Part shown: piece by piece, positions 6,227-17,647 of the stretch
Numbering within the stretch: the first letter of the stretch is position 1
Layout of the letters: each line of letters begins with the position of its first letter
IMG/VR virus record: IMGVR_UViG_3300046820_000574
Location: 1-22,870 of that record
From: a virus
Length of the DNA: 22,870 bases
Strand: one strand, 5' to 3'
Notes under the pieces: model-generated
Told to the model about the DNA's origin: nothing
The model's input: the letters and a program-made list of their open reading frames with translations, nothing else
The model's database searches: none
Position numbers and translations under genes: made by a program

Positions 6227-7345
6227 ATGAATTCATTCAAGAAAATCGCACTAGCCGTGGTTGCAGCCATGACTTTGGGCATGGTCGCAGTAGCACCTGC
6301 AAATGCTACAGTAATGACAGTGGCAGTATCGCTAGATGGAACAGCGAATACTACTAACGGTGTACTCGCTACACCTGCTACACTACCAGTCCCAGCAGAC
6401 AACACAATCGATGCAGCAGATGCACTACGCTTTGTGGCAACAGTAGCAGCAGGAACATCAGTTACTGCAGTAGCAACTAACGCAACAATCGTATCTGCAC
6501 TACACACATCAGCAGCACCAGTCGGAGCATCGTCAGGATCATCATCTTTGACAATTGCAACAGGCACTGGAACAACTGCAACATTCTTTGTCTACACCAA
6601 GACAACAGCAATTGGTACCGTTGTAATCAACAATGGCGGAACAACTCTTACATACTATGTACAGGGTACTGCTGGCAAGATTAACAACCTAACAGTTTCA
6701 GCACCTGCATCAGGCGCAGCAGGAACAAAGCAGGACATCACAGTTACAGCAACAGACGTATTTGGAAACAGAGTTTCTGGCAAGTCTCTTACTGCAACAG
6801 TATTCGCTGCAACAGCAGTACTAGACACAGCAACAGCAACAACTGGTGCTACACTAACAGACTTTGGAGTAGCAACCTTTAAGGCAACTCTTCCAACAAC
6901 TGGTTCACGAGCACTTATCACATTTGCTCCAACAACATCGTCAGATGCAACTTCTGCAGATGTAGTTGGTTTGACTGCTCGCACTCTTGCACCATTTGCA
7001 GAGATTGCAGTTCGTGATCTTGTATCAGAACTTGCAGCACAGACTGCTGCAAAGACTGCTGCTGAAAATGCACTTGCAAATGCCGTAGCAAAGGCTGCAG
7101 CAGATGCTGCTGCTGCTAAGGTCGCTTCAGATGCTGCTCTTGCAGCAGAAAAGGCTGCTTCTGCAAAGGCTCTTGCTGATGCAAAGGCTGCTTCAGATGC
7201 AGCGCTCCTTGCTAAGGATGCACAAATCGCTAAGTTGACTGCTGATAATGCAGCAGCAATTAAGTCACTAAAGGATGCTTTCAACAAGTTGGCTCGCCAA
7301 TGGAATGCAAAGAATCCAAAGGCTAGAGTTACACTAGTCAAGTAG
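6227..7345 (+). CDS. Secreted Ig-like protein with Ala-rich coiled coil
   Basis: ATG 6227 follows AAGGAG. Of 372 residues, the first 27 are a clear Sec signal peptide (MNSFKK, hydrophobic core, cleavage likely after PANA). Next is a Thr/Ala/Ser-rich beta region. About residues 152-245 look like an invasin/Big-type immunoglobulin-like domain (NNLTVSAPASGAAGTKQDITV, then TDVFGNRVSGKSLTATV). Residues 265-355 are an Ala/Lys/Asp coiled coil (repeats like AAADAAAAKVASDAALAAEKA), and a basic tail ends NPKARVTLVK. It should be exported and bind the cell wall or other proteins. A signal peptide on a phage protein next to terminase is unusual; the style resembles host actinobacterial surface proteins, and GCA/ACA-heavy codon use differs from its neighbours, suggesting acquisition from a host. 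It ends at the terminator hairpin. Confidence 0.8.
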   Translation: MNSFKKIALAVVAAMTLGMVAVAPANATVMTVAVSLDGTANTTNGVLATPATLPVPADNTIDAADALRFVATVAAGTSVTAVATNATIVSALHTSAAPVGASSGSSSLTIATGTGTTATFFVYTKTTAIGTVVINNGGTTLTYYVQGTAGKINNLTVSAPASGAAGTKQDITVTATDVFGNRVSGKSLTATVFAATAVLDTATATTGATLTDFGVATFKATLPTTGSRALITFAPTTSSDATSADVVGLTARTLAPFAEIAVRDLVSELAAQTAAKTAAENALANAVAKAAADAAAAKVASDAALAAEKAASAKALADAKAASDAALLAKDAQIAKLTADNAAAIKSLKDAFNKLARQWNAKNPKARVTLVK

Positions 7346-11446: not shown

Positions 11447-11650
11447 ATGAATCACTCACACGAAGATTTATCACCAGAAGAGCAAGAGTTTGGTATCTGG
11501 CTTGAAAACGGGATTGAAAGAGGCTGGGTAACACCACCTTACTGCAATACCCATGATGGTGGATACGAATACATGGGTGAAGAAGAATTAGAGGAATGGG
11601 AAGCAGGTGGCGACCCATGCCAACATGTCGTCAGATTGATGATATCGTAA
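11447..11650 (+). CDS. Small acidic Cys/His protein, 67 aa
   Basis: This 67-residue protein is very acidic (HSHEDLSPEEQEF, then MGEEELEEWEAGGDP). It contains YCNTHDGG and DPCQHVVRL, that is C-x2-H and C-x-H pairs that could bind one zinc ion. The tail HVVRL with preceding WEAGGDPC looks like a conserved actinophage motif to me, but I cannot name a family. ATG 11447 is placed by the promoter geometry. A following ATG for the subtilase lies 18 bases downstream of its stop. Confidence 0.6.
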   Translation: MNHSHEDLSPEEQEFGIWLENGIERGWVTPPYCNTHDGGYEYMGEEELEEWEAGGDPCQHVVRLMIS

Positions 11651-11667
11651 CAACGAAAAGGAATAAA

Positions 11668-12576
11668 ATGAAGAAGACACTACTAGCAGTACTATCAGCA
11701 CTACTTGTAATTACCACAGTTCAGCCTTCTCAGGCAAATGATCAAAAGGTTTTAGCAATTATTGATACCGCTATTAACTCAAAAAACTTTAACTCAATTA
11801 TTCATGAGGTTTGCTTTACAACCGTAAAGTCTCCAATTGCAACTCAAAACATGTCGTGCCCAAATGGAGAATTGTTTATGGAGGGTCCAGGAGCAGCATC
11901 TGCACCGTGGCCTGCATCAATTAATAATGGTACATACCATGGAGACACAATGGTAAAGGCAGCACTTGTAAACAATCCAAACATTAAGATTGTTTTTATT
12001 AGAGTTTATAATGTTTCTTCTGTAGGAAATTCACTAACACCATCAGATGGATCAACAATTATCAGTGCTTTGGACTGGATAAACAAAAACGCTTCAAAGT
12101 ATAGTATCGATGCAGTTTCGATCAGCCTGTCTGGAATCAATACTGATCTTAGAACAAGAGTAAAGTCACTACATACAGGATGCACCAACCCAGCAATATT
12201 GAATCCCATTGTAAGTCAGGTTGCAGGACTAAACGCAAAAAATGTTCCTACATTTGTTGCTACTGGTAATGATGGAGAAAGAAACATTGTGGGATTTCCA
12301 GCATGTGTTCCAGGAGTAATTGGTGTAGGTGCACTAGGAAGTGCCACTCAACTTGAAAAAGCAACCAATACTGGTCCAGGACTTGTGATGGTTGCACCAG
12401 GAAGAGTTAGCATCACCAAGTACAATGGCTCAGCAACAGATACCGCTGGAACCTCTGTAGCGACTGCAGTCTCTGCAGCATCATATGTAAACCGCAATAC
12501 ATTTAAAACTTTTGGAGAGTACCTGTCTTCTCTTCCAAAGATTTTAATCGGTACTGCATCGTACATTCGTAGTTAG
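11668..12576 (+). CDS. Secreted subtilisin-like (S8) serine protease
   Basis: ATG 11668 follows AAAAGGA. The 302-residue product has a Sec signal peptide (MKKTLLAVLSALLVITTV, cleavage likely after QPSQA) and all catalytic elements of subtilases: D33 in LAIIDTAIN, H91 in NGTYHGDTM, N201 in VATGNDG (oxyanion hole) and S263 in DTAGTSVATAVSAASY. Four or more cysteines (C49, C64, C172, C213) could form disulfides outside the cell. There is no clear propeptide of normal length, unusual for an S8 protease. The enzyme should act at the host surface or outside: wall protein removal, release, or virion maturation are options. It follows another protease gene, so the pair may work in succession. An in-frame GTG/ATG further upstream (11596) overlaps the previous gene and lacks a signal peptide start. 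Confidence 0.88.
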   Translation: MKKTLLAVLSALLVITTVQPSQANDQKVLAIIDTAINSKNFNSIIHEVCFTTVKSPIATQNMSCPNGELFMEGPGAASAPWPASINNGTYHGDTMVKAALVNNPNIKIVFIRVYNVSSVGNSLTPSDGSTIISALDWINKNASKYSIDAVSISLSGINTDLRTRVKSLHTGCTNPAILNPIVSQVAGLNAKNVPTFVATGNDGERNIVGFPACVPGVIGVGALGSATQLEKATNTGPGLVMVAPGRVSITKYNGSATDTAGTSVATAVSAASYVNRNTFKTFGEYLSSLPKILIGTASYIRS

Positions 12577-12611: not shown

Positions 12612-12684
12612 TGCCCTATAACTCAGTTGGTAGAGTGCCGAACTGTTAATTCGGATGTCCCTGGATCGAGACCAGGTGGGGCAG
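12612..12684 (+). tRNA. tRNA-Asn (anticodon GTT)
   Basis: A full cloverleaf can be drawn. Acceptor arms are TGCCCTA (12612-12618) and TGGGGCA (12677-12683), with one T-G wobble. The D stem is ACTC/GAGT with an AGTTGGTA loop; the anticodon stem is CCGAA/TTCGG with loop CTGTTAA and anticodon GTT at 12645-12647; the T stem is CCTGG/CCAGG. The discriminator is G73, as expected for Asn. CCA is not encoded. The T loop is ATCGAGA, so the usual T54 is A. A second copy of the 5' acceptor strand, TGCCCCA (12604-12610), lies just upstream and pairs perfectly with the 3' strand. Confidence 0.92.
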
Positions 12685-12690
12685 CGGTGT

Positions 12691-12730: not shown

Positions 12731-13390
12731 ATGATAATAAAGAAAAATGGTATTTCTGGTTCTGAGTGGTGGCTAAACTCTGAGAACTTGTCATTACCAG
12801 ACATACTGATCCAGTCAAGAATTCCAGAAAAATGGTCTAGGTATAACTCAAAAGATATTTTGAATATCTCTAGTGTGTTAAAACCAATAAATAACTATGT
12901 TCTTAATCTATATCCAAAACCACAAATCATGAGCATAAATAATAATATAGTTACATTTAGACAAAGAACTCATGCTGAAATTTGGGTCGAGGAAAGAGAA
13001 GATGGCACTTTGTATGCTTTAGATAAATGTCATCAAAGACAATTTTATCCATCTTCTAATAGGATAGAGAGTGAAGACTGCTTTGATCCAACATATAAAT
13101 TTTATATCCCCTGGTTTATAAATAAAGATATTGAAATACAAATAAACACAGTAGAGGATGAAGATACGCCATTCTATGTCGGCCAGCAAAACTTTATTGG
13201 GAAGTCAATCCAAGAGTCTTTGACATATGCATATTCAGAATTTGTTGATTTCAAGATTAAGAATACTGGTCAATATTATCTAAATCAAAAGTATGCTATT
13301 ATTAGTAAGAACACTGCTATGTATGATATGTCTGCTTTACTAAGCGACGCAGAAATAGCACAACTAAAGGATTACTATGGACAACAGTGA
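12731..13390 (+). CDS. Protein of unknown function, first gene of the cassette
   Basis: ATG 12731 follows AGGAAAA; longer in-frame starts run into the promoter. The 219 residues contain no motif I recognise. Visible are an SGSEWWLNSENLSLPDILIQ opening, alternating beta-like stretches (IVTFRQRTHAEIWVEEREDG), FYIPWFINKDIEIQINTVED, and a soluble helical end LLSDAEIAQLKDYYG. The IPWFI...INT...PF pattern recalls the beta core of the next gene, so both may share a jelly-roll fold. It overlaps the next gene by 14 bases (AAAGGATTACTATG), showing co-translation. Options include a substrate or scaffold protein for the enzymes downstream, or a virion decoration protein. Confidence 0.7.
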   Translation: MIIKKNGISGSEWWLNSENLSLPDILIQSRIPEKWSRYNSKDILNISSVLKPINNYVLNLYPKPQIMSINNNIVTFRQRTHAEIWVEEREDGTLYALDKCHQRQFYPSSNRIESEDCFDPTYKFYIPWFINKDIEIQINTVEDEDTPFYVGQQNFIGKSIQESLTYAYSEFVDFKIKNTGQYYLNQKYAIISKNTAMYDMSALLSDAEIAQLKDYYGQQ

Positions 13391-14141
13391 GTTAGAACTA
13401 ACATTCATTCCACACCACAAGAATGACCATCTTTTATCTCCAGAGCCATCCTACAAAAAAATACCTCAGTGGTATAGAGACCTAGCAAAACATTTTACTA
13501 GTAATGATTTAAAGTCGTTATGTCCAGTAAATGATAGGGGTGGAGATGGATCTAATGTTTCAACAAAATTATGTTTACCGTTTCAAGATGCCATGTCTCT
13601 TGGCTACATGTATTTATTAGAAGATGACTTAGAGGTGAAACTTAGTCTGTCTGGAAAGCCATCTTTGTCTTGGAAAAAAGACTTTACTATGATGGACCAA
13701 AGGCCAAATGTTGATATGGCAATTCCAAAGGATGTTCATCCCATACAGTTTGGCGTTAAGATGCAGTGGTATTATGAAACGCCAAAGGACTATTCTTTAT
13801 TAATGACAATGCCAATAAATAGACCAGACTTGCCATTTTGGGTTCCATCTGGTATAGTTGACTCTGACATATGGGGACTTCCTGCCTTTATACCATTCTT
13901 TATAAAGAGAGATTTTGAAGGTGTCATTCCGATTGGAACTCCAATATGTCAGATGATTCCAATCAAAAGGGAGCCATGGAACTTGGTAGTAGATGATTCT
14001 TTTGATGCAATAGAAAAGCATCAACTAAGAGCAGAGAACAGGCGGTCTGACATAACTGCACACTATAGAAAATTTGCATGGAGAAAAAAAGAATATGCAA
14101 AGTATAATAAAGAACAAACAAAAAATAAAGGAGATAACTAA
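13377..14141 (+). CDS. DUF6065-like phage protein of unknown function
   Basis: This 254-residue protein has features I associate with a phage family labelled DUF6065: SYKKIPQWYRDLAKHF near residue 25, STKLCLPFQDAMSLGYM near 62-77, HPIQFGVKMQWYYETPKDYSLLMTMPINRPD in the middle, GIVDSDIWGLPAFIPFF, and GTPICQMIPIKREPW near 190-205. It ends in a very basic helix (RKKEYAKYNKEQ). The pattern of beta strands with conserved Trp and Pro suggests a beta-sandwich, possibly cupin or jelly-roll. No catalytic residues are evident. The family name is from memory and the function unknown. Its company (oxygenases, glycosyltransferase) is the best hint of a role. Confidence 0.7.
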   Translation: MDNSELELTFIPHHKNDHLLSPEPSYKKIPQWYRDLAKHFTSNDLKSLCPVNDRGGDGSNVSTKLCLPFQDAMSLGYMYLLEDDLEVKLSLSGKPSLSWKKDFTMMDQRPNVDMAIPKDVHPIQFGVKMQWYYETPKDYSLLMTMPINRPDLPFWVPSGIVDSDIWGLPAFIPFFIKRDFEGVIPIGTPICQMIPIKREPWNLVVDDSFDAIEKHQLRAENRRSDITAHYRKFAWRKKEYAKYNKEQTKNKGDN

Positions 14142-14806
14142 TGCTAAATACAAATGGATCTTTGTCTAATAGCAACAAAGAGCATAAGTTTTTTGAAAAA
14201 TATCTAGATAACGACCTAGAGGAACTTGCTAGTTTTCTAGAAGAGAAGTATGTGCTAATCGAAAACGCCAAACTTCGTGGTGTCAACACAATGGAAAATG
14301 ATCCAGGGTACTGGTTAGAGTCTGGAAGTTTGTCAACTGTAAAGTGGCGAGAGTATAATGTATTTCAACTATATCATCCTGCCCTACATAAGTTGTATTC
14401 TGAACTATCAAAGACTGTAAAGGAAGCCTGTGAATACTACGGTGTAGATTTTGAAAAGCAGCAGTACTATGTTCAGGGTTGGTTCAATATTAATAAAGTA
14501 GGAAATGGAAAGTTAAACTGGCATGACCATGGTGCACCAGGGGCTCCTAATTTTCACGGGTACTACTGCGTAAAGGCTGAACCATCAATCACCTACTACA
14601 GACTTTACGGTGATCCAAATAGAGAAGTTGCTAATCACAATATCGACAACAGAATGATTGTTTCTGAAATGGGACACCCACATGCACAAGGTGATTGGGA
14701 TTGGCCTGGGTCAAGAATTACAGTTGCTTATGATATTCAGCCTCTTGAGGCCTTAATCAGAGGCGGAGACCAAACAATTCAGCAGCACTGGATTCCACTG
14801 TTGTAA
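14141..14806 (+). CDS. 2OG-Fe(II) oxygenase-like protein
   Basis: ATG 14141 overlaps the previous stop and follows AAAGGAG. In 221 residues the C-terminal half carries LNWHDHGAPGAPNFHGYYCV with an HxH pair (H128, H130), then a product-like strand PSITYYRLYG, then DNRMIVSEMGHPHAQGDWDWPGSRITVAYDI with a second His (H179 or H181) and R192 in the position that binds 2-oxoglutarate. The metal triad H-x-H...H instead of H-x-D...H is found in the putative 2OG-Fe(II) oxygenase_5 group of phages. The N-terminal half is helical. Predicted: hydroxylation of a protein residue or base; substrate unknown. The HxH in place of HxD should be checked, since such sites may still bind iron. Confidence 0.65.
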   Translation: MLNTNGSLSNSNKEHKFFEKYLDNDLEELASFLEEKYVLIENAKLRGVNTMENDPGYWLESGSLSTVKWREYNVFQLYHPALHKLYSELSKTVKEACEYYGVDFEKQQYYVQGWFNINKVGNGKLNWHDHGAPGAPNFHGYYCVKAEPSITYYRLYGDPNREVANHNIDNRMIVSEMGHPHAQGDWDWPGSRITVAYDIQPLEALIRGGDQTIQQHWIPLL

Positions 14807-14807
14807 A

Positions 14808-15641
14808 ATGAAAAAAATATTAGTTTATTTTTATGGGTACAAAAGTAAGTTGCTACCTCAAGCGGTAGAGCAACTCATAAAAAATCAAAGTGGTCAAAAT
14901 GATATAGAGGTTGTCGTATACGACCAAACAAATGTATCAAGACCAGAAAAGTTTTTAGGCCTAGAATACAACCATATTTATTGGGATAATCTAACATCTA
15001 GGTTTAAATACTTTAATCTTTTGAAAAAGAAAAAAGGCTTTGATTTTTTTATGTACATTGACGGTGCCAAAATGTTTGAAAAAGATTGGGATCTTGAGTT
15101 ACTAAAATATCAGGATCACTCAAAGACAATCTTGTCAGGCAATCATGACATTGTATTTAATAAAGATAACTATAAATTTTACACAGACTACAACAAGGTT
15201 AAAATAACAAAAGCATTAAAGACTAATTGGTTTGTTAAAGACTTTTCTTTTATGCAGTTTGATATATTTGAAAGCCTTCCTGATATCTCAATATTTAAAT
15301 ATTATGGGGTTGAGGAATATGTTTCAGTGTTTGCAGCGCATGAAGAAATTTCTATAGTTGCCATTCCAACAGAATTAATTGTTGATCTTGAACCCAGGAT
15401 AGAGGAGAATGATTTTATACCATTTTCTTTATATCATAACTATTCAAAAGTTATAGATTCATTTAAATTAAAGGATGACTCTATGCCTGGGGTTCAAGAA
15501 CTTAGTAAACTTGTAGACTATGACTTTAGTCGTTTGGAATATTTTCCATACAACACAAATGATGTTACATATAAATTTATTTCAAATCTAGACATGGTTT
15601 CTGAAAAAAGATTTCATTCAGTACAGAAAGGAATATACTAA
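14808..15641 (+). CDS. GT-A-type glycosyltransferase, GlcNAc-transferase-like
   Basis: This 277-residue protein starts 2 bases after the previous stop without a clear RBS, so translation is probably coupled. KKILVYFYGY is a first Rossmann strand. IEVVVYDQTN (33-42) and FDFFMYIDGAKMFEKDWDLELL (78-99) match the layout of the GlcNAc-transferase family (PF11397/GT60), whose members have an R...Y....D.H/F...WD pattern; here YIDGAKMF replaces the usual D-x-H/D. GNHDIVF (111-117) and a late VFAAHEEISIVAIPTELIVD segment follow. In eukaryotes GT60 enzymes put GlcNAc on hydroxyproline made by a prolyl hydroxylase. Here a prolyl-hydroxylase-like gene is the next one downstream, which makes a linked function plausible. 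Donor and acceptor are not proven. Confidence 0.6.
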   Translation: MKKILVYFYGYKSKLLPQAVEQLIKNQSGQNDIEVVVYDQTNVSRPEKFLGLEYNHIYWDNLTSRFKYFNLLKKKKGFDFFMYIDGAKMFEKDWDLELLKYQDHSKTILSGNHDIVFNKDNYKFYTDYNKVKITKALKTNWFVKDFSFMQFDIFESLPDISIFKYYGVEEYVSVFAAHEEISIVAIPTELIVDLEPRIEENDFIPFSLYHNYSKVIDSFKLKDDSMPGVQELSKLVDYDFSRLEYFPYNTNDVTYKFISNLDMVSEKRFHSVQKGIY

Positions 15642-16204
15642 TGATAACAAGCCCCGTGGTAATTAAAAACTTTATTACTCCTGAAGATGCACAAACACTG
15701 ATAGACGAGATTAATCGTCCGTCAGAAACAAACCCATACCCAGAATATTATAAAACTAGGTACGGTGGAACAGCATACCCATACAACAAAACAGTTCTTG
15801 CAATTCAAAGAAAGTACTCTCTTCTGTCTAACGAGACACACCAAAGACTTAATCCAGAAGAAACAAAACAGATAAAAACCTTTAAGTCTTTTGGTTCGGT
15901 TTGGCTAGAGGGAAGTGCAGCAAACCCTCATGTTGATGATCAGTCACCAGAAGAGTTTATCGAGTACAGCACTGTGATATATTTGGATGATACTTTTACT
16001 GGCGGTGACCTATATTTTCCAGACCTTGGATTTACATATAAGCCAGAAAAGTATGACGGTATATTTTTTATAAGTGATGGAGAATTGTGGAGGCATGGCA
16101 TATCTAAAATAGAAAGCGGTAAAAGAACAACGCTGCTTTATATGCATACAACACAAACAGAGCATCCAAAGGGGTACACAATTGTTGATCCAGATCTTAA
16201 CTAA
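15641..16204 (+). CDS. Prolyl-4-hydroxylase-like 2OG-Fe(II) oxygenase
   Basis: ATG 15641 overlaps the stop of the glycosyltransferase gene and follows AAAGGAA. The 187 residues follow the P4H/2OG-FeII_Oxy_3 layout in order: VVIKNFITPEDAQTLIDEI opening, ANPHVDDQSPEEF with H97 and D99, STVIYLDDTFTGGDLYFPDLG (the classic YLN-x-x-FxGGELxF strand), DGIFFISDGELWRHGISKIESGKRTTLLYMHT with H152 and R162. All metal and 2-oxoglutarate residues are present, so it should be active. Known activity: hydroxylation of Pro in peptides, or of other side chains in phage and bacterial members. Its partner genes on both sides suggest that the hydroxyl is further modified. Confidence 0.82.
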   Translation: MITSPVVIKNFITPEDAQTLIDEINRPSETNPYPEYYKTRYGGTAYPYNKTVLAIQRKYSLLSNETHQRLNPEETKQIKTFKSFGSVWLEGSAANPHVDDQSPEEFIEYSTVIYLDDTFTGGDLYFPDLGFTYKPEKYDGIFFISDGELWRHGISKIESGKRTTLLYMHTTQTEHPKGYTIVDPDLN

Positions 16205-16222
16205 TAGTCAGAGAGATAAAAA

Positions 16223-17647
16223 ATGATAATCCTTGGAGTAAATGAGACATCTCATGACGCATCAGTCTCTTTAATAAAAGACGGAGAAATACTTTTTGCA
16301 GGGCATGCAGAAAGATATAGCAAACAAAAAAATGACTGGTATGTGAATGATAGTTTAATAAAAGATGCACTGCAGTATGGTAGACCAGACTACATTGCCT
16401 ACTACGAAAAGCCCCTTCTAAAGGCCTCCAGACTGGCTTTAAGGGGTGGATCTGGCGAATGGAAGCCAAGGTTTAATATAGACGGAGTTAAAAGAAAATC
16501 TTTTGGACACCACTATTCTCATGCAGCAGCAGGATACTACACAAGTAATTTTAATGATGCCGTGATAGTTGTCCTTGATGCCATCGGAGAGTATAACACT
16601 TCTACAATTTGGGTTGGTGAAGGCGAAAAAATTAAATTAAAGTATAAGCAAAACTATCCAGTTAGTTTCGGTTTGTTCTACTCAGCATTTACACAACTTA
16701 TAGGGTTAATGCCAAATCAAGAAGAGTACATTATGATGGGGATGGCTGCTTACGGAAACCCAGAAAGGTATGCCCCTAAAGTGTCTAAGTATTTTCTTAG
16801 ACATGACATACAAAAATATAATTTTCACAAAGGTATTGTTGATTGGAATGAACCAATTACAGAGCAGGATAAGTTTGATATAGCAGCAGCCGTTCAGTAT
16901 GTTTATGAACAAAGACTTGCAGAGTTTATGAATATGGCTAAAGATATCACAGGTAAAAAGAACTTGGTATTTATGGGTGGGTGTGCACTTAATTCATCTG
17001 CAAATACTTTGTTGTGGAATATATTTGATATGATTTGGATCATGCCAAACCCTGGCGATGCTGGAAGTTCTTTGGGCGCAGCAGCAGCGCTATACGGAAA
17101 GCATCTTGACTGGAAGACTCCGTATCTTGGCTATGATCTTGGTGGTGAATACCCTATTCAAAAAATTGTTGACGGCATATTAAAAGACGGAATCGTAGCA
17201 GTAGCAACAGGTAGAGCAGAGTATGGTCCAAGAGCATTAGGTAACAGAAGTATTCTTGCAGACCCAAGAGACCCTTTGATTAAAGATAAGGTGAATAGAA
17301 TTAAACAAAGAGAATTGTTTAGACCGTTTGCCCCAGTCGTTATGGCAGAGCATGCACATAAGTGGTTTGATATGGATTTTGAAAGTCCGTACATGCAGTA
17401 CACCGTAAAATGCTTGAAGCCATATGCAATACCATCGGTTGTTCATGAAGATGGAACTTCAAGAGTCCAGACTGTTACAAGAGACCAGCATCCAGGACTC
17501 TATCGTGTGCTCAACAAGTTTTATCTTCAGACTGGTGTGCCAGTCCTTCTAAACACAAGTCTCAACATAAAGGGCCAGCCACTATTGAATGATGAAGAAG
17601 ATATTCTTAAGTGGGAAAAAGAATATAGTTTCGTAATATGCAGGTAA
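16223..17647 (+). CDS. NodU/CmcH-family O-carbamoyltransferase
   Basis: This 474-residue protein has the family motifs in order: GVNETSHDASVSLIKDG (H11), FGHHYSHAAAGYY (H96, H97, H100), VLDAIGEY (D119), an EEYIMMGMAAYGNPERY box, MGGCALNSSAN (251-261), PNPGDAGSSLGAA (276-288), GRAEYGPRALGNRSILADPR (330-349) and LLNTSLNIKGQPL (442-454). Both the Kae1-like domain, which makes carbamoyladenylate from carbamoyl phosphate and ATP, and the YrdC-like-partner region appear complete. The end is short compared with TobZ or CmcH (about 500-570 residues), missing the usual last helices. It transfers a carbamoyl group to a hydroxyl of a sugar, antibiotic or, in some phages, hydroxymethyl-base. A hydroxyl made or carried by the three preceding enzymes is the natural candidate acceptor. 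The RBS (GAGAG) is weak. Confidence 0.88.
   Translation: MIILGVNETSHDASVSLIKDGEILFAGHAERYSKQKNDWYVNDSLIKDALQYGRPDYIAYYEKPLLKASRLALRGGSGEWKPRFNIDGVKRKSFGHHYSHAAAGYYTSNFNDAVIVVLDAIGEYNTSTIWVGEGEKIKLKYKQNYPVSFGLFYSAFTQLIGLMPNQEEYIMMGMAAYGNPERYAPKVSKYFLRHDIQKYNFHKGIVDWNEPITEQDKFDIAAAVQYVYEQRLAEFMNMAKDITGKKNLVFMGGCALNSSANTLLWNIFDMIWIMPNPGDAGSSLGAAAALYGKHLDWKTPYLGYDLGGEYPIQKIVDGILKDGIVAVATGRAEYGPRALGNRSILADPRDPLIKDKVNRIKQRELFRPFAPVVMAEHAHKWFDMDFESPYMQYTVKCLKPYAIPSVVHEDGTSRVQTVTRDQHPGLYRVLNKFYLQTGVPVLLNTSLNIKGQPLLNDEEDILKWEKEYSFVICR

Follow-up and report, generated by a model that had tools for sequence, protein, structure and literature searches.

In social amoebae and other protists, a Skp1 prolyl hydroxylase is paired with the GT60 glycosyltransferase Gnt1. 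Among viruses, the combination of protein hydroxylation and glycosylation is known from mimivirus, and we know of no conserved multi-enzyme cassette of this kind in bacterial viruses. Here we analyzed six genes, named A to F, at positions 12731–17647 of IMG/VR record IMGVR_UViG_3300046820_000574, a viral fragment of 22,870 bases (the window, i.e. the whole stretch at its full length). The cassette is real, conserved and phage-specific, and its carriers are uncultured viruses of bacteria that form a large group. We tentatively adopt the reading, which is quite possible, that it is a virus-specific protein-modification cassette acting on a low-complexity repeat protein. The likeliest substrate would be a protein of the tail-fibre module that consists of fibronectin III (Fn3) domains, a repeat and a Hint domain.

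The nearest precedent is the hydroxylase and glycosyltransferase system of mimivirus, where L230 and R699 are collagen-modifying enzymes (PMC9546862). There too, a 2-oxoglutarate (2OG) protein hydroxylase and glycosyltransferases are encoded by the virus; their substrates are repetitive, collagen-like proteins of the virus itself. Mimivirus, in contrast, is a eukaryotic giant virus with lysyl rather than prolyl or other hydroxylation, neither DUF6065 nor a carbamoyltransferase has been described in its system, and the substrate in our case is a candidate. In mycobacteriophage Maravista, a phage-encoded glycosyltransferase has been suggested to glycosylate the virion (PMC11256854), which resembles our proposal in that a phage enzyme would decorate a virion protein; the abstract describes no coupled oxygenases or carbamoyltransferase.

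Gene order and conservation of the cassette

The cassette and its left border comprise the following features:

12612..12685, + strand: tRNA-Asn(GUU), marks the cassette's left border; in sister phages with C and F only, this tRNA lies before C
12731..13390, + strand: A, 219 amino acids, faint relative of B (DUF6065-like) by profile comparison, first gene of the A–E unit
13377..14141, + strand: B, 254 amino acids, DUF6065-like (phrog_7084) through the profile matches of its relatives
14141..14806, + strand: C, predicted HxH-type 2OG-Fe(II) oxygenase fold (model and invariant residues); resident gene, also found with F alone
14808..15641, + strand: D, predicted GT-A fold glycosyltransferase, GT60/GT27-like (model and profile matches of relatives)
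15641..16204, + strand: E, prolyl-hydroxylase-like 2OG-Fe(II) oxygenase (invariant residues)
16223..17647, + strand: F, NodU/CmcH/TobZ-type O-carbamoyltransferase (PF02543 and PF16861), optional mobile member

All six open reading frames were found at these coordinates, and the tight packing described in the initial annotation was confirmed. A and B overlap by 14 nucleotides (nt), and B and C as well as D and E by 1 nt, while gaps of 1 nt and 18 nt separate C from D and E from F. The best start of A is the ATG at 12731 rather than the GTG at 12689. In comparison with four relatives (L003, L009, L012 and L015), the ratio of nonsynonymous to synonymous substitution rates (dN/dS) was 0.04–0.25 for each gene (0.11–0.22 for A). 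All six genes are under purifying selection, and therefore none is a chance open reading frame. The single promoter proposed for the cassette was not demonstrated: despite a TATAAT 36 nt 5′ of A, promoter-like sites showed no excess over shuffled sequences (24 versus 23.5), and neither did a terminator scan.

Loci of relatives were collected with D (16 loci), B (56) and C (80, the best 80 of 428 matches), with several contigs shared between the searches. Altogether 428 stretches in the viral collection encode a relative of C. A search of 84,980 species genomes of bacteria and archaea with the C profile gave no relative; the peptide patterns used there reach fairly close relatives only. Counts for D refer to 43 clusters at 95% identity, among which related contigs are not independent. 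C lies directly upstream of D in 39 of these clusters and a B paralogue in the remaining 4; in 36 clusters, E follows D immediately. F is absent from 24 clusters; of the 19 that have it, 13 have it after D and 6 before A. Thus, of the six-gene co-occurrence that was to be checked in other phages, A-B-C-D-E holds together as the conserved unit, and F is optional and separable.

C also occurs without D, in 26 loci, 23 of which carry C and F without A, B, D or E. On the tree of C, the label 'no D' changes at least four times, on well-supported branches. Upstream of A in full-cassette phages lies the same tRNA-Asn as upstream of C in the examined C+F phages. Therefore, C and F are resident or separable, with A-B and D-E gained or lost around them. 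The recurrence of C+F alone and the shared tRNA-Asn could also mean that two unrelated cargo modules, the C-F pair and the A-B-D-E set, sit at a common hot spot beside the tRNA and act on separate substrates. We consider this unlikely, as C keeps its place between B and D in most clusters (39 of 43), even in genomes that lack F or have another architecture, and therefore also belongs to the larger unit.

The initial annotation had further proposed that hydroxyl, sugar and carbamate are added in an obligatory chain. Since F is optional, and precedes A in some clusters, and since C+F alone recurs with several label changes on the C tree, such a fixed chain is unsupported. It may operate in the window's lineage, not as an obligate pathway.

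Predicted enzymes of the cassette

The window D matches no Pfam family at E ≤ 1. Among its relatives, 14 of 32 match GT60 (PF11397; best 1.8e-5), in agreement with the earlier description of D as GT60-like, and one matches GT2. The structure model of D, proposed earlier as a check on its assignment as a glycosyltransferase, has a GT-A fold (predicted local distance difference test, pLDDT, 89). Its best solved match is ppGalNAc-T2 (Z 17.8 over 228 residues, 3.0 Å); human LH3, with a region at Z 13.8, and mimivirus R699 are also among the structural neighbours. As judged from the model, D is thus closest to polypeptide GalNAc-transferases. D clusters diverge down to about 25% identity, no match to D was found among 50,697 phage records, and its sequence gave no convincing match to any solved structure. 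The arrangement of a prolyl-hydroxylase-like oxygenase beside a GT60-like transferase resembles the Skp1 pair. It differs from that pair in its phage context, in the lack of a Skp1-like target, in the additional oxygenase and carbamoyltransferase, and in that the window D is itself without a Pfam match.

C has no Pfam match and no convincing sequence match to any solved structure. Its model (pLDDT 91) is a double-stranded beta-helix of the 2OG-oxygenase type, with 3bvc (Z 16.9) and then PHD2 (Z 14.5) as best structural neighbours. Where the canonical set is HxD/E...H...R/K, C has H128 and H130 (HxH), H181 and R192, all invariant in 36 sequences, and D129 is present in at least 90%. These results bear out the assignment of C as an HxH oxygenase, a 2OG-Fe(II) oxygenase by its predicted fold. 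In E, the set is HxD...H...R, with H97, D99, H152 and R162 invariant. The E profile matches prolyl 3-hydroxylase 1 (1.4e-7) and also prolyl 4-hydroxylases, so that the earlier reading of E as a prolyl-hydroxylase-like 2OG-Fe(II) oxygenase stands on sequence grounds. PF13640 is matched by 15 of 24 E relatives; the window E itself gave only a very weak match to Tet_JBP (0.033). We rejected a TET/JBP reading of E, because PF13640 fits its relatives far better and Tet_JBP (PF12851) never exceeded the cut-off in 15 related records. The families that match E carry the label 'DNA endonuclease', which calls for caution with database annotations.

In a profile comparison with hhalign, A shows a weak relationship to B (77%). 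The DUF6065 profile (PF19541) is matched by 12 of 38 aligned B members (best 5.6e-9) and not by the window B, which is DUF6065-like through its relatives. B gave no convincing sequence match to any solved structure, and a literature search on DUF6065 found nothing; the Hint/repeat protein described below would give this family a first functional context. Long relatives have an additional copy, B′, in the vicinity of the tail gene for the Fn3-repeat-Hint protein. Relatives of B also occur in 50 phage records, nearly all of them haloviruses, and the two that were read (L018:6857-7693 and L019:6857-7741) lie beside tail-fibre/adhesin genes or the minor virion protein VP1.

F matches both carbamoyltransferase domains far above their cut-offs (PF02543, 126.3 bits against 24; PF16861, 182.3 bits against 27). 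It resembles the solved enzymes GdmN (5.5e-55), novobiocin carbamoyltransferase and TobZ (1.9e-44). By sequence, F is a bona fide member of the NodU/CmcH/TobZ family of O-carbamoyltransferases, as had been claimed. A literature search combining carbamoyltransferase, hydroxylase and virion protein found nothing. Given that the substrates of these solved relatives are sugars and small molecules, the enzymes might instead modify a small molecule or the host envelope, decorating a surface glycan or cell-wall polymer, e.g. for superinfection exclusion, with F carbamoylating a sugar as NodU-type enzymes do. SGNH hydrolases near F in some relatives and the position of the window cassette between a secreted protease and a CHAP endolysin would fit this explanation. 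However, the highest-Z GT-A neighbours of D are protein O-glycosyltransferases, C and E resemble protein hydroxylases, and the linkage to the tail module described below would be left unexplained. We therefore regard envelope or small-molecule modification as fairly unlikely.

Candidate targets

The phages that carbamoylate 5-hydroxymethylcytosine also encode an enzyme with the carbamoyltransferase Pfam domains of F (PMC8670742). DNA hypermodification would thus be conceivable here, with an oxygenase making a hydroxymethyl base, D glucosylating it, in the manner of base J or T4, and F adding the carbamate, as in 5-carbamoyloxymethylcytosine phages. In the MetaGPA study, a carbamoyltransferase together with thymidylate synthase marks contigs with modified phage DNA, whereas in unmodified contigs, the carbamoyltransferases have unrelated flanking genes, e.g. 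glycosyltransferases (PMC8670742). Neither a thymidylate-synthase-type gene (PF00303) nor a C5-methylase gene (PF00145) was found in the 15 related records of 52–123 kb, which may be fragments, and PF00303 was also absent from the window record. The genes that are missing here would be dispensable in a base-J-like route with direct oxidation of T. The very weak Tet_JBP similarity of E also speaks for DNA hypermodification. DNA chemistry does not, however, explain the tail-module linkage. As PF00303 and PF00145 were absent and the cassette adjoins a repeat protein of the tail module in sister lineages, the earlier preference for a protein target holds; DNA is disfavoured on this sequence evidence, and we consider it improbable.

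In a second architecture, the gene directly before the cassette encodes a protein in which Fn3 domains are combined with an aromatic repeat, e.g. (PFGFT)n, and a Hint domain at the C-terminus (L058, L059, L063, L125, L133-L135, L138-L140, L142, L144-L151 and L153). One small gene separates the two in some of these loci. The upstream neighbours of the Fn3-repeat-Hint gene are tail-fibre proteins, one of them with an Mtd_N domain. The protein was found upstream in 12 D clusters, none of which has a lysis-region neighbour as well. In the converse search, seeded from the Hint protein, modification enzymes were present in all 13 loci with at least about 0.8 kb of downstream sequence; with PFGFT repeats, the downstream order is C-B-A-B-C-C-D-E. 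In a third architecture (L188-L195, e.g. L192:6001-11700), the genes behind an Fn3-(APPGFF)n-Hint protein encode five 2OG oxygenases and a clear DUF6065 protein (5e-29). The Hint/repeat protein is a named candidate substrate that would be cheap to test.

According to the proposed mechanism, C and E, as two 2OG oxygenases, would act on a repeat protein of low complexity, produced late in infection, and hydroxylate its side chains. D would add a sugar to a hydroxyl group, which could be that of a hydroxylated residue or of Ser or Thr. A and B (DUF6065-like) probably bind or present the substrate, and F, as a separable extra, would O-carbamoylate a hydroxyl, either on the sugar or introduced by C. 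For the lineage of the window, we envisage action in trans, on the Fn3-repeat-Hint protein or another late protein. We infer these activities, the protein nature of the target and its identity. A more specific version is possible and somewhat doubtful, namely a matched repeat-and-enzyme system of tailed phages. Here, a neighbouring enzyme set would hydroxylate and glycosylate an aromatic/proline-repeat Hint tail protein and would vary with the repeat, a GT60-like transferase and HxH oxygenases going with PFGFT and five 2OG oxygenases with APPGFF. In such a system, DUF6065 proteins would represent modification factors of a new class, and the carbamate would be an optional cap.

Several observations weigh against the proposed mechanism. 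The likeness of D to protein O-glycosyltransferases is one of shared predicted fold and no proof of the acceptor, and its metal motif, expected to be of the DxD type, varies (IDG in the window, ING/VNG in L038/L045/L044, ISD elsewhere). The window's lineage has the Hint protein together with a second B copy about 50 kb away from the cassette (G001 102492 and 105242); the cassette itself has been relocated beside the lysis genes and does not adjoin the Hint gene. The Hint repeat of this lineage is mostly GAF (GAFGAF), with few Pro/Thr (G001, G002 and G017). The substrate link is therefore indirect in the window's own lineage, and the 22.9-kb record itself contains no candidate substrate gene. 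Finally, tail modules are cargo hot spots, and the adjacency may therefore reflect a common insertion site. A relative with C and F only (G009) keeps the Hint protein and second B pair.

The Pro/Thr-rich PA14 protein, suggested as a target in the initial annotation, was rejected. Its P/T-rich stretch does not track the presence of D and E, being present in phages without D and absent from some that have it.

In three Hint proteins (L125:4504-5859, L133:4480-5841 and L148:4506-5831), the Hint domain with its Cys follows the repeat and ends in a C-terminal THNK, like the end of an intein; judging from these motifs, the tail protein may process itself right after the repeat. A further repeat protein of 718 amino acids (L213, G005 at about 89.5–92.7 kb) has (YSFTP)n repeats alternating with WxxWxxC modules, the latter similar to thrombospondin type 1 repeats. 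The tail region of G001 (L158:12390-16103) holds a possible second decoration cluster, consisting of a 2OG oxygenase, a fucosyltransferase-like protein, an SGNH hydrolase and a sugar epimerase-like gene.

Neighbouring genes in the window

The protease-like gene beside the cassette (11596-12576) encodes a signal peptide and is also found in relatives, several of which carry a trypsin-like secreted protease instead. Adjoining the terminase, a signal-peptide protein with an Ala-rich tail (6227-7345) is conserved in the group. A further 2OG-oxygenase-like gene (656-1345) lies upstream of the terminase, and its homologue is found within the cassette of L058, L059, L063 and L069.

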